Of a stretch of 20,956 bases of DNA, positions 7,969 to 12,125 are shown piece after piece (within the stretch, counting starts at the first letter, position 1; the number at the start of each line of letters is the position of its first letter). Source of the stretch: a virus; the IMG/VR virus record IMGVR_UViG_3300024518_000679, positions 1 to 20,956 of that record; one strand, written 5' to 3'. Both the position numbers and the translations under genes were made by a program. The notes below the pieces were generated by a model. It did no database searches, was not told the DNA's origin, and worked only from the letters and a program-made list of their open reading frames with translations.

Positions 7969-8020
7969 CATAATAATAATATTTTAACATAACTTTAACA
8001 TTTAGAATTAAACATAGAGC

Positions 8021-8049
8021 AAAAACCCCTACTAATTAAAGTAAGGGTT
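8021..8049 (-). terminator. Rho-independent terminator closing the structural and lysis genes
   Basis: On the minus strand AACCCTTAC (8041-8049) pairs with GTAGGGGTT (8024-8032) over an 8-nt loop: nine pairs, one of them G-T. The stem runs into TTTTT. It lies about 30 nt after the last lysis-region stop (8082) and before the early genes, so it separates the two units. Confidence 0.8.
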
Positions 8050-8081
8050 CTTAACTAAAAACAAATAAAACAAAGAAAAAA

Positions 8082-8510
8082 TTACGCAAAAAACAAAGAC
8101 ATTGATTTTAAGTCATCACAATCGAAATAGATAAAGTCTTTACCGACACCTATTCGAGTTACACCTCTTAGTATTAAACCTCTAACTAACCTAAGTCGTT
8201 TTTGTACGTTTAATACTCTTATTTTTACTGCTAGTCCAACTCTATGCGAATCTTTAGTTGGAAGAAAATGGTCTTTATATGCTGATTTCTCACAAACATA
8301 TCCTAAAAGCACATCAAATCTCATTCTCTCTTCTCTAGCTATATCATCTAATATTAGAACGGGTTGACGTTCCATATAGTTTTTACCAGAATTAACATTA
8401 CATTTACCACACTTACATCCGAATTGACTCCATCTTAAAAAGCCAAGACCTTGCGTATCGGCTTCCTCGTCATAGTCGTAGGTATAGTCTGGTTGGTGCA
8501 ATAAAGACAT
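8082..8510 (-). CDS. Degenerate M15-type peptidase homologue, probably catalytically dead
   Basis: The protein has 142 residues from ATG 8510; a TTG at 8516 is less likely as the start. The layout follows phage M15 peptidoglycan peptidases: a fold entry (LILDDIAREE, 52-61), a GY-containing segment (70-71), S-H-R-x-G-L-A-V (88-95) and R-I-G-V-x-x-x-F (119-126). In active members the core reads SHxxGxAvDI and the end FxHVD. Here the Asp ligand is Lys96 (AVKI) and the final His is Tyr128 (FIYFD), so only one of three zinc ligands remains (H89). A CKCGKC cluster lies near residues 32-37. It follows the holin, has its own promoter and may act as a structural binder or regulator of lysis. An intact M15 enzyme lies at 9191-9604. 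Confidence 0.75.
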   Translation of the reverse strand: MSLLHQPDYTYDYDEEADTQGLGFLRWSQFGCKCGKCNVNSGKNYMERQPVLILDDIAREERMRFDVLLGYVCEKSAYKDHFLPTKDSHRVGLAVKIRVLNVQKRLRLVRGLILRGVTRIGVGKDFIYFDCDDLKSMSLFFA

Positions 8511-8513
8511 AGG

Positions 8514-8545
8514 CAAATATAAAGAAAATAACAGTTATGACCAAA
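8514..8545 (-). promoter_or_regulatory. Strong Bacteroidota-type promoter, probably giving a leaderless mRNA
   Basis: The minus strand shows TTTG (8542-8545), 20 nt, then TATATTTG (8514-8521). These are perfect matches to TTTG and TAnnTTTG at near-canonical spacing. The box ends only 3 nt before the ATG at 8510, so transcription should begin at or next to the start codon. Direct repeats TAACAGTTA (8529-8537 and 8555-8563) lie in the spacer and just upstream of the -33 box and could be regulatory sites. Confidence 0.72.
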
Positions 8546-8560
8546 ACAAGTTATTAACAG

Positions 8561-9028
8561 TTACTTCGCTTTAGTTTTACCGTACTCTCTTAGTGTAAAA
8601 TAACCGCCTATAACAGTAACACCCATAGTCATTAGTAACGGTAAATAAGCCTCACCTAATGGCTTTCCCCACATAGAACTAAGAATAACTATATCTATTA
8701 ATAAAGTGAAGTTAGCAACCGTTAAAGGTCTTATGTTTCTAGGTAGCCAATCTTGGGATTGATTGTCTGAAATCCATCTCTTAGTTAGTTCTTGGTCTAC
8801 AGCAACATCTTTTTCTATTTCAGCTAATAATATCTCTTTGTCTGCTTCGCTTAATTCTGTTGACCCGTTTATTAGTGAGCCTAAATCCTTTAAAGATTCA
8901 ATACCTGTTAACGCTCCTGCTGCACTTAGTATTTCAGGTGCAATAGTCTTACCTTGCTTAGCAAGCCATCTTAAAGCGTTGCCAACATTAGTTCCTTCTC
9001 CACCGTTCTTCTTCTTTTTATCACTCAT
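8561..9028 (-). CDS. Holin, 3TM/GTA-holin-like
   Basis: The protein has 155 residues. The C-terminal part contains the phrase W-L-P-R-N-I-R-P-L-T-V (94-104) that typifies the GTA-holin/3TM holin family. It is followed by two hydrophobic spans (about 103-119 and 128-146) and a basic tail (REYGKTKAK). The N-terminal 90 residues are soluble, with a Lys-rich start, an Ala-rich weakly hydrophobic segment (30-55) and an acidic helix (58-80). It should insert in the inner membrane and open it at lysis time. It lies downstream of the M15 peptidase and overlaps the preceding 49-aa gene by 8 nt. Confidence 0.75.
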   Translation of the reverse strand: MSDKKKKNGGEGTNVGNALRWLAKQGKTIAPEILSAAGALTGIESLKDLGSLINGSTELSEADKEILLAEIEKDVAVDQELTKRWISDNQSQDWLPRNIRPLTVANFTLLIDIVILSSMWGKPLGEAYLPLLMTMGVTVIGGYFTLREYGKTKAK

Positions 9029-9190: not shown

Positions 9191-9604
9191 CTATAATCTG
9201 TAATCCCAAGTACTGTAATATTTTCTTAAATCTACGTGTGTAAACGTATTATAACGACCTATTCCTTGAAACTTAACACCTTTAATCATTGGGTTTCTTC
9301 TTAGGTTTTGTATTACATCAAAAACTTCGTCAGGAGTAAAATGCTTTATAGTGATGTCTGCTGCTTTACCTAAAACGTGTTGACTTGTATCTTTAGAACC
9401 TATACTGCGATTATGTTTCTTACATCTATACGCACTATTAATATTTATAGGCTCGTGAACATAATCTCTCACTATCTGTAATTCTTCTGCTAACTTCTTT
9501 ATATTAGCTAAGACATCGTCAGGCATCTCGCAACCGCACTTACATTCAAATTCGCTTAAATTAAAGTTTCTTGTTATTTGCATCTTTTTCGTCATTATCA
9601 TCAA
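9191..9604 (-). CDS. Peptidase M15A-type endolysin
   Basis: The protein has 137 residues. It shows the complete zinc site of the M15 peptidases: SQHVLGKAADI (74-84) with H76 and D83, and T-H-V-D (122-125) with H123. It also has the entry motif NFNLSEFECKCGCE (13-26) and SAYRCKKHN (57-65) typical of the Peptidase_M15_3 group. These enzymes cut peptide cross-links in peptidoglycan, so this is the likely endolysin. It lacks a signal peptide, as expected for a holin-dependent enzyme. It overlaps the upstream one-TM gene by 44 nt. Starts at 9595 or 9583 are also possible and would shorten the overlap. Confidence 0.9.
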   Translation of the reverse strand: MMIMTKKMQITRNFNLSEFECKCGCEMPDDVLANIKKLAEELQIVRDYVHEPININSAYRCKKHNRSIGSKDTSQHVLGKAADITIKHFTPDEVFDVIQNLRRNPMIKGVKFQGIGRYNTFTHVDLRKYYSTWDYRL

Positions 9605-9776
9605 ATGGATTATGAAATGTGTCGGGGTCTTTTCTTACTAATCGCCACCACTTTGCAGCAGTAAAACCAATTGATACAAAAAGTAAACTAAACTTAAGAA
9701 TGTAATCAATACTTTGCAGCGATATAAAAAGCGTCGTCCCATTTATCAGCCATATTTTTATGTAATCTAAATTCAT
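9561..9776 (-). CDS. One-TM membrane protein, holin or antiholin candidate
   Basis: The protein has 71 residues. The N-terminal two thirds are hydrophobic, with one clear span (about 25-44, YILKFSLLFVSIGFTAAKWW) and a weaker one before it (IWLINGTTLFISL, 8-20). It is followed by a charged tail (RLVRKDPD... DDNDEKDANNKK). Size, topology and position directly upstream of the M15 endolysin match phage holins or antiholins. Because a larger holin-like gene exists at 8561, the two may form a holin/antiholin pair. Neither role is proven. Confidence 0.6.
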   Translation of the reverse strand: MNLDYIKIWLINGTTLFISLQSIDYILKFSLLFVSIGFTAAKWWRLVRKDPDTFHNPFDDNDEKDANNKKL

Positions 9777-9778
9777 TT

Positions 9779-9892
9779 TTATTCGTCTTTTTTTATCACA
9801 AAGATAGTATTATTGTTTCGGTCTTTCTTACTCAAATATTCTTTAAGTTTCTCGACATTTTCTTCTTTAGGTTTGTACATATTTTCACTCAT
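9779..9892 (-). CDS. 37-aa charged protein coupled to the connector gene
   Basis: ATG at 9892 overlaps the TGA of the connector-like gene as ATGA and the frame ends 2 nt before the one-TM gene. The product starts MSENMYKPKEENVEKLKEYL and ends TIFVIKKDE; it is helical and Lys/Glu-rich. The exact fit between two genes is the main evidence. Function unknown. Confidence 0.5.
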   Translation of the reverse strand: MSENMYKPKEENVEKLKEYLSKKDRNNNTIFVIKKDE

Positions 9893-10407
9893 AATAACCA
9901 TCCTCCTGTATAATTAACATCCTTATCTGGGTACATATCACCATTATCATTATTTATATACTCAGGATATAATGTAGAGTTAGCACAAATAAAATCTAAA
10001 AACCTCTTAGTATAAAATTCTGCGTTATCTCTTGTACGTTGTATAATGTAATCTAGTTCATCCTTACTAACTACATCACCATTTTCAGATGTGTGTTTAT
10101 GAATACCACCATTCTTTACTTGGAATAAACTAAATGGAAGATACGTAGATTGTGAGTACCATATTAACATAGGCTTAACATAATCATCCAACAAAGTCTT
10201 GTAATCTTCATTAGCTACATCACCAATAGTACCTAGTAATATTAGTTCTTGTAGTTTTCTGTACAGATTACTGCCTAAGTAGTTTTGGATATGTGTGTCC
10301 TGTGCCACTTCTACGAATTGAAGAATCTTATCACTATCAACGTTACCATCAATTATTGATTTCTTCTTTAATTCCCCTACCGATATAAATAATGCTTTTT
10401 TCGCCAT
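9889..10407 (-). CDS. Head-tail connector-like protein (DUF6712-like)
   Basis: This 172-residue, mostly helical protein has a pattern typical of phage head-completion/connector proteins: LFISVGELKKKS, then a D-x-D-K-I-L-Q-F-V-E-V-A-Q-D segment and I-Q-N-Y-L-G-S-N-L-Y-R-K-L. The ILQFVEVAQD...YLGxxLY signature matches, from memory, the DUF6712 family in Bacteroidota phages. Its start is 2 nt after the portal gene stop, as expected for a protein that extends the portal ring and docks the tail. It ends in an ATGA overlap with the 37-aa gene. The function is inferred from family and position. Confidence 0.65.
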   Translation of the reverse strand: MAKKALFISVGELKKKSIIDGNVDSDKILQFVEVAQDTHIQNYLGSNLYRKLQELILLGTIGDVANEDYKTLLDDYVKPMLIWYSQSTYLPFSLFQVKNGGIHKHTSENGDVVSKDELDYIIQRTRDNAEFYTKRFLDFICANSTLYPEYINNDNGDMYPDKDVNYTGGWLL

Positions 10408-10409
10408 AA

Positions 10410-12125
10410 CTATTTACTTCTATATGCTCCTTTATCTGGTCTATCAATCATTCTCTCATCAATCTCTGATGGGTTAATTGGCTCGATGAAATCATCTTTG
10501 GGAGTGATTTGCTTTCCTCCTATCTTTTTATAAACTCTTAACTCCCAAAAATGATGACAATTTTTACCGCCTTTGAATTTAAATAAACTATAATGTGCTT
10601 TGTTGTGTCCTAATTCTTTATTAACACCTCTAAACGACATCATATTAATATCTTCTTTACGAAATACAATATTGTTAGATGTGTAGTTTTCCATATGCTT
10701 ACAGAACTTTCTGCTATCACTAGAATTTCTTACAGGACTATATGCGTATCTTACTTTATACACTCCGTTATCTTGACCACTCTTTTTCTTAGGATTAGCC
10801 TCTGCTAGAGAATCGATTTTAAAGTCCTTTTCCGAGTCTTTTACTTCTTCGGAATGTATTAGCTCCCAACCATCAGAGATAGTCTCTCCAAGGCTCTCTA
10901 ATTGGCTCATAAGGTCATCCTCTTCACCATCGGTTAACTCAATCTTGTCAGATGATAGTTTTTCACCCGTTTCTTCTTCTCTTTTAATCTTAGTAGAGAT
11001 ATTATCTAACTCTGTAAACTCGATAGGTTGAAGTGTAGTGAAATATAAATCTAATATAATATTGTTAACTGAAAGTATTTCTTCAAATGCGTGTAGTATC
11101 TCATCTTGTAATGGTCTAATAATAACATTATCCATTAATACTGATGCTGTACGTAATTCTTCTGCATTATTACCAAACCCTGTGTTATCTTTAATACCTA
11201 ATAGTATTGGTGAGGTTACACCGTGTCCTAACATTATCTTCTCTCTTGCTTCATCACTCATAAATTGGTATTGAGCGTGAGCATCTGGTAAGTGTATAGG
11301 CTCTAAGTCTGCTTTAGTTTCTTGTGATTCGTTAAATGCAATGATAAACTTACCTGCATTACTTGAACCACTAAACTTTTGGTATATCTTTCTCTCAATA
11401 GCATCTTGAGTTTCTTCACTAGGCACTCCATTATTAAAGTTAATTAATAAAGATGGTTGTAGTCCGTTCTGTATATTGTTAATATGATAATTCGATACCT
11501 CTTCTTCTAGTGAGCAATACTGTAAACATCCGTGATAGTCAACAGGAGCATAGTAATAGAAACCACTTCTGTAAGGTTTAACTACATATATCTCGTTAAG
11601 TTCTTTATTAGAACCATTACCAAATGATGGTATGCGTTTAGGCTTATCAGTAGTTTTAATATCCTTCCAAGATGGGTGATAGTAGTATGCTCTAATAAAT
11701 CCTTTTCTATCTGCTTTCTCTGCTCGTAAACACTCCATAGGGAAGTGAGATACTTTAAGTATCTTAGTTCTCGCCTTGTTGTAAGTAACTTGAATAGCTG
11801 CTTGACCTAATAGCTTATAATCTGAACAAACCTTCTTTACGTGTCGTTTATGTAACAAACGTTTCATCTCAAGATACTCTTTAGGTTTGTCTAAAGAATC
11901 TAATGCGTCAAGACCTCTACCGAATATCATATCGGTAATACCATTAACACATCTTGAATTTGTAGGTGAGCCTAAGTATCGTTCTATAATCTTATCAAAG
12001 TAATCATTGTTATCGCCAAAGTTCATCCAACTCTTATTGTAATCTTCTTTAACGGTAGGTTTTTCGTACCCTGATAAGTTATACTTAGATACTCTTATTC
12101 CTGTTTGTGGTTTTTTATCTTCCAT
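10410..12125 (-). CDS. Portal protein with a C-terminal NCHH minor-head-like domain
   Basis: The protein has 571 residues. The central part resembles phage portals. One conserved-looking segment reads MLGHGVTSPILLGIKDNTGF, followed by N-N-A-E-E-L and an I-I-R-P-L-Q-D-E-I stretch that precedes the long helix. Portals form the dodecameric ring through which DNA enters and leaves the head. The last 130 residues look separate, with VRYAYSPVRNSSDSRKFCKH, then FRGVNKELGHN and KGGKNCHHFWELRVY. The NCHH motif could bind metal and is seen in head-maturation or minor-head proteins of related phages. An acidic linker (about 385-430) joins the parts. It is followed within 2 nt by the connector gene. Confidence 0.75.
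   Translation of the reverse strand: MEDKKPQTGIRVSKYNLSGYEKPTVKEDYNKSWMNFGDNNDYFDKIIERYLGSPTNSRCVNGITDMIFGRGLDALDSLDKPKEYLEMKRLLHKRHVKKVCSDYKLLGQAAIQVTYNKARTKILKVSHFPMECLRAEKADRKGFIRAYYYHPSWKDIKTTDKPKRIPSFGNGSNKELNEIYVVKPYRSGFYYYAPVDYHGCLQYCSLEEEVSNYHINNIQNGLQPSLLINFNNGVPSEETQDAIERKIYQKFSGSSNAGKFIIAFNESQETKADLEPIHLPDAHAQYQFMSDEAREKIMLGHGVTSPILLGIKDNTGFGNNAEELRTASVLMDNVIIRPLQDEILHAFEEILSVNNIILDLYFTTLQPIEFTELDNISTKIKREEETGEKLSSDKIELTDGEEDDLMSQLESLGETISDGWELIHSEEVKDSEKDFKIDSLAEANPKKKSGQDNGVYKVRYAYSPVRNSSDSRKFCKHMENYTSNNIVFRKEDINMMSFRGVNKELGHNKAHYSLFKFKGGKNCHHFWELRVYKKIGGKQITPKDDFIEPINPSEIDERMIDRPDKGAYRSK

Follow-up and report, generated by a model that had tools for sequence, protein, structure and literature searches.

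A conserved and apparently inactive M15-like peptidase encoded beside the holin and endolysin genes of phage contigs

The DNA analyzed in this study (20,956 nt, referred to below as the window) is one entire IMG/VR record, IMGVR_UViG_3300024518_000679. Its minus strand carries, at positions 8082–8510 (ATG at 8510, stop codon ending at 8082), a gene encoding a 142-aa M15-like pseudopeptidase, P0001, for which motif, profile, conservation and fold evidence was collected. On the same strand, the gene of a 155-aa holin (8561–9028; phrog_3427, E 1.1e-10) lies between the P0001 gene and that of an M15_3 endolysin, P0002 (134 aa; 9191–9595; PF08291, E 5.3e-21; phrog_894, E 1.4e-39). The motif alignment revealed that P0002 has the complete set of Arg, His, Asp and His, and its distance from the P0001 gene (681 nt) agrees with the first-pass annotation of this DNA, which had placed an intact M15 enzyme about 700 nt away. 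Upstream of the endolysin gene, still on the minus strand, are a 71-aa ORF with a hydrophobic stretch and no family match (9561–9776) and a 40-aa gene (9779–9901), which in the contig L003 directly precedes the pseudopeptidase gene. Elsewhere in the window, an ORF at 1665–2228 gave a sigma-factor match (phrog_1740, E 9.2e-7); L022 and L024 have comparable ORFs.

An intrinsic terminator-like hairpin (8020–8053, minus strand) is located approximately 29 nt past the stop codon of the P0001 gene. A hairpin of this kind is found at the same position in L001, L021 and L003 and, of 18 loci inspected, most have one shortly downstream of the stop codon, in agreement with the earlier proposal that the gene has a dedicated terminator. 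In the L022-type loci, a Bacteroidetes-type promoter-like motif is present just beyond the hairpin. Between their holin and pseudopeptidase genes, L024 and L025 have short candidate terminators, which were disregarded.

The gene had also been credited with its own promoter, a claim for which the sequence is suggestive only. A Bacteroidetes-type promoter-like motif, TTTG-N20-TATATTTG (8514–8545, minus strand), does precede the ATG, but it is a motif only; it ends 3 nt upstream of the ATG, and the transcription start site would fall almost on this codon. TAnnTTTG occurs at about the same position in L001, L021 and L003, and the upstream TTG at the expected spacing in the window and L003 only. 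A sigma-70 scan was uninformative (fewer sites were detected than in shuffled sequences). The motif is at most suggestive of a promoter belonging to the P0001 gene.

P0001 contains the motifs SHRVGLA, AVKI, RIGV and FIYFD, the first and third of which reproduce the M15 layout recognized previously (SHR-x-G-L-A and R-I-G-V). By alignment, H89 corresponds to the first zinc ligand and is retained, K96 (AVKI) is found in place of the zinc-ligand Asp, and Y128 (FIYFD) replaces the last zinc His, so that the His-Asp-His triad reads H-K-Y. Both substitutions had been named in the first-pass annotation and are real, but its tally of lost key residues was too low, since V72 stands where the SAYRC motif has its substrate Arg. 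In the D-Ala-D-Ala carboxypeptidase of S. albus, the M15 site is composed of H154, D161 and H197, with R138 as the substrate Arg (PMC11266112).

When P0001 was used alone, no convincing family was found in Pfam or PHROGs (PF08291 was not reached), and neither phmmer nor a profile search of solved structures gave a useful match. Intact M15 proteins were matched by tblastn in Rheinheimera phages (E 3e-4) and, weakly, in Aeromonas phage P5. A profile generated from intact M15s only detected P0001 at E 7.6e-7 and its divergent relatives at E down to 2e-14; these values are those of the first-round profile, as the second-round profile had absorbed pseudopeptidase members and its values were discarded. 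Alignment (hhalign) of the pseudopeptidase-family profile with the intact-M15 profile gave a probability of 99.7% over 118 columns. PF08291 was matched at E ≤ 0.01 by 18 of 34 family members (best 5.9e-5), and phrog_894, which is named "endolysin", by 25/34, so that automated annotation may give the name endolysin to inactive proteins. Profile similarity therefore places the pseudopeptidases in Peptidase_M15_3 (PF08291) as a homologous family and, judged from its sequence, P0001 is a true M15_3 homologue that has lost its zinc site.

A comparison of the predicted structure with M15 structures, suggested in the first-pass annotation, led to the same family. The best solved match of an AlphaFold model for which only the 34 pseudopeptidase sequences served as input (pLDDT 82) was the zinc DD-peptidase 1LBU (Z 10.1, rmsd 3.3, 118 residues aligned), followed by the M15 endolysins LysECD7 (7.0) and LysB4 (6.8) and by Hedgehog domains. 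The pseudopeptidase family is thus predicted to have kept the M15 (LAS/Hedgehog-DD-peptidase) fold. A first model, based on 9 sequences, was weak (pLDDT 57), with designed proteins among its top matches and Hedgehogs at Z 5.4, and was superseded by the 34-sequence model. Foldseek against the PDB alone gave no match with E < 0.001. The Hedgehog family PF01085 was matched by one of the 34 members (E 0.0088), and structural likeness to Hedgehog is common to all M15 proteins.

Relatives of P0001 were found on 53 IMG/VR contigs besides the window, all of them metagenomic viral contigs; the collection was searched by short patterns, and more distant members may be missing from this number. The first search identified 11 orthologues, and a survey of related intact M15s revealed a second, divergent group, starting with L074, through which 42 loci were found. 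No relative of the pseudopeptidase was detected in 84,980 bacterial and archaeal genomes, which were scanned twice. Among the tblastn matches examined for both groups, no named phage carried the dead form, and these matches were intact M15s. The copy in L152 (5008–5413) is split across two frames and represents either a broken gene or an assembly error.

The loss of the active site is a property of the whole family. In an alignment of 161 homologues, Arg, His, Asp and His were present in 116/116 complete intact M15s. The 35 distinct full-length pseudopeptidases in the same alignment all retain the first zinc His, all have Tyr in place of the last one, and all lack the substrate Arg of SAYRC (V, T or I instead), while the position of the zinc Asp is occupied by K (4), R (6), V (18) or E (7). 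The family-wide triad is therefore H-{K,R,V,E}-Y. The pseudopeptidases also lack the Ser, Asn and Trp that intact M15_3 members conserve, and no orthologue keeping the Asp and His was found among the 35. The protein is thus as dead-looking as had been proposed, and of its two substitutions the Tyr proved to be conserved in all orthologues, whereas the Lys did not. With an invariant first His and Tyr and a variable Asp position, it is the loss of Asp that matters, and not the gain of Lys. Because the catalytic residues are lost, degradation of peptidoglycan by P0001 appears unlikely, and the status of its family as predicted pseudoenzymes is well supported.

Across 34 pseudopeptidase members 17 residues are invariant, including the first His (H89), Gly92, Tyr128, Asp130 and Asp132. 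This raises the question of whether the cleft has been repurposed as a different site, for ligand binding or for catalysis, perhaps with a metal held in a new geometry. Such a site could be composed of the invariant H89, Y128, D130 and D132 together with the gained R48 and K104. It would account for the invariance of H89 and Y128 on either side of a variable Asp position, and for the six residues (C32, G42, R48, F65, K104 and Y128) that became fixed after a switch or gain; C32, D130 and H89 are, by conservation only, candidate alternative metal ligands. However, D130, D132 and K135 were merely inherited from intact L017-type enzymes, zinc is rarely bound by Tyr, the protein shows no known active-site signature, and H89 and Y128 may be invariant for structural reasons. 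We consider a repurposed cleft of this kind doubtful.

A relative of the window's holin gene lies upstream of the pseudopeptidase gene in 49 of the 50 contigs with a visible upstream neighbour (a manual tally from the neighbourhood table), and ERF-type early genes lie downstream wherever the contig reaches far enough. With the holin upstream, and the hairpin and early genes downstream, the pseudopeptidase gene is usually the last late gene. In the second group there is space for a small basic ORF between holin and pseudopeptidase: L074 encodes there (at about 2730–2861) a small, very basic protein ending KRPGVHSKNASVGKRGHKKAYRGQGR, and DNA resembling this gene is found upstream of the pseudopeptidase in L119–L149.

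From gene position we infer a role in lysis. The link is positional only, and L003 keeps the gene without an endolysin or holin beside it. There, the pseudopeptidase gene comes right after the portal, 172-aa and 40-aa genes, with no lysis block at this site but with a similar upstream stretch (GTTAATAACTT); the contig is short, and the lysis genes may lie elsewhere. The gene could accordingly be a late, end-of-operon backbone gene that happens to border the lysis block (encoding, e.g., a minor virion protein or a host take-over factor). Its absence from 43 of 44 sampled M15-holin pairs of other phages is in line with this, and indicates that it is an accessory of one phage group and not a fixed part of the endolysin-holin pair. 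The distances of the pseudopeptidase also track those of ERF (correlation 0.89) slightly better than those of the holin (0.86) or endolysin (0.75), although these values mostly reflect linkage. On the other hand, the position after the holin is maintained across deep divergence, and the ancestor of the protein was a peptidoglycan peptidase, which makes a function unrelated to lysis rather unlikely.

The first-pass annotation had regarded P0001 as a paralogue of the neighbouring endolysin, a view that is contradicted by the tree. The 35 dead sequences form one clade (support 98/95), which persists after removal of the active-site columns (SH-aLRT 83) and is located among L017-type M15_3 proteins, apart from the endolysin of the window; with few columns and long deep branches, the exact sister group of this clade is unsure. 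The endolysins adjoining the pseudopeptidase genes represent three separate M15 lineages. One dead clade beside three endolysin lineages points to an old, separate line, which stayed in place while the endolysins changed.

This history bears on a direct partnership of the two proteins, in which the pseudopeptidase would bind the adjoining M15 enzyme as its inhibitor or regulator. An M15 endolysin and a holin nearly always adjoin the gene, and there are known pseudometallopeptidases that act as regulators or partners of their active relatives (PMC11266112). However, as the endolysin has been exchanged between lineages, the pseudopeptidase would have no single fixed endolysin partner, and in L003 it has no adjoining endolysin at all. 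In both groups measured, moreover, the pseudopeptidase evolves under stronger constraint than the endolysin (median dN/dS 0.185 vs 0.229 and 0.052 vs 0.099). A dedicated endolysin regulator is, in our opinion, improbable.

With a median dN/dS of 0.104 in the third group, the values for the family range from about 0.05 to 0.19, and it is under purifying selection. Decay of an endolysin gene, to which the missing catalytic residues and the broken frame of L152 might point, can be dismissed almost entirely in view of these values, the reading frame that is open in nearly all contigs, the invariant residues and the single old origin; the first-pass annotation had likewise argued against decay.

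The reading that we prefer is that of a phage pseudopeptidase which works by binding, as an accessory of lysis; we assign it a probability of roughly 0.45. P0001 would have an M15 (LAS-type) domain folded like those of peptidoglycan peptidases, without a catalytic zinc held by the M15 site and without the ability to bind the substrate carboxylate through the usual Arg. It would be expressed late, at the end of the structural-lysis module. Since the protein has no signal or membrane segment (maximum 19-residue hydropathy 0.79; pI 8.6), it should remain in the cytoplasm, like the endolysin, until the holin opens the membrane. It would then bind a lysis component, a protein of the envelope or, in an altered manner, peptidoglycan, and thereby tune or assist lysis. 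A binding, regulatory or decoy role had been suggested earlier. Binding or regulation is still the most likely kind of role, but a peptidoglycan decoy or simple binding of stem peptides is disfavoured, since the Arg and further cleft residues kept by intact enzymes have been lost. A more specific version of the lysis-accessory reading is conceivable, although the odds are against it: a peptidase that became a non-catalytic, more conserved lysis-control protein with a rebuilt cleft (the invariant His89-Tyr128-Asp130-Asp132) and was retained as the end of the late operon, while the neighbouring endolysin was swapped between lineages.

The pseudopeptidases share with the Peptidase_M15_3 endolysins (PF08291; phrog_894) the fold, the HxxGxA and RIGV/HxDxD framework, the size and the position in the lysis region, and differ from them in lacking the zinc Asp, the last zinc His, the substrate Arg and the conserved Ser, Asn and Trp. 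The N-terminal signalling domain of Hedgehog, a structural match, likewise uses the M15/LAS fold for binding and not for proven cleavage. Hedgehog is an animal signalling ligand, however, and Shh retains the zinc ligands H140, D147 and H182 (PMC11266112), two of which have lost their counterparts in the pseudopeptidase. Hedgehog is the only M15 pseudopeptidase named in a review (PMC11266112), and no paper on an M15 pseudoenzyme or an inactive endolysin of a phage was found in the open literature searched. The family would therefore add a second case in which the M15 fold serves a purpose other than catalysis. Animal pseudopeptidases are well known; here, a family with conserved loss of catalysis occurs on at least 54 phage contigs, and its location beside holin and endolysin provides a setting in which the participation of a pseudoenzyme in phage lysis can be tested. 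The degenerate LytM/M23 amidase activators EnvC, NlpD and ActS (PMC8360153 for ActS) have peptidoglycan metallopeptidase domains without catalytic residues and act by protein binding in envelope biology. Their likeness to the pseudopeptidase is an analogy only, as they are exported, cellular members of family M23 with known amidase partners.

Among named phages, the window portal matches those of the Nonlabens phages P12024S and P12024L (Inhavirus; 36.7% identity), which, like the window, have an endolysin-holin pair after the structural genes. The environmental viruses that carry the pseudopeptidase are relatives of a phage infecting marine flavobacteria. In P12024S no pseudopeptidase was found; a 50-aa ORF follows the holin. 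The window portal itself (571 aa; 10410–12125) has a C-terminal extension of approximately 150 aa, which is absent from the 413-aa portal of L022.

Two other observations concern lysis regions of other contigs. Chaperonin-like (GroEL-type) and co-chaperonin-like ORFs, judged by reading only, are located upstream of the same type of M15 endolysin and holin in phages that do not carry the pseudopeptidase (L014:1595–3395 and L015:1079–2879). In the related phages L022 (6694–7149), L024 (6602–7057) and L025 (6737–7192), a protein of approximately 151 aa with an N-terminal lipobox-like sequence and HELSHD (HExxH) is encoded between the M15 endolysin and the holin, and is a candidate exported metalloprotease of the lysis cassette.
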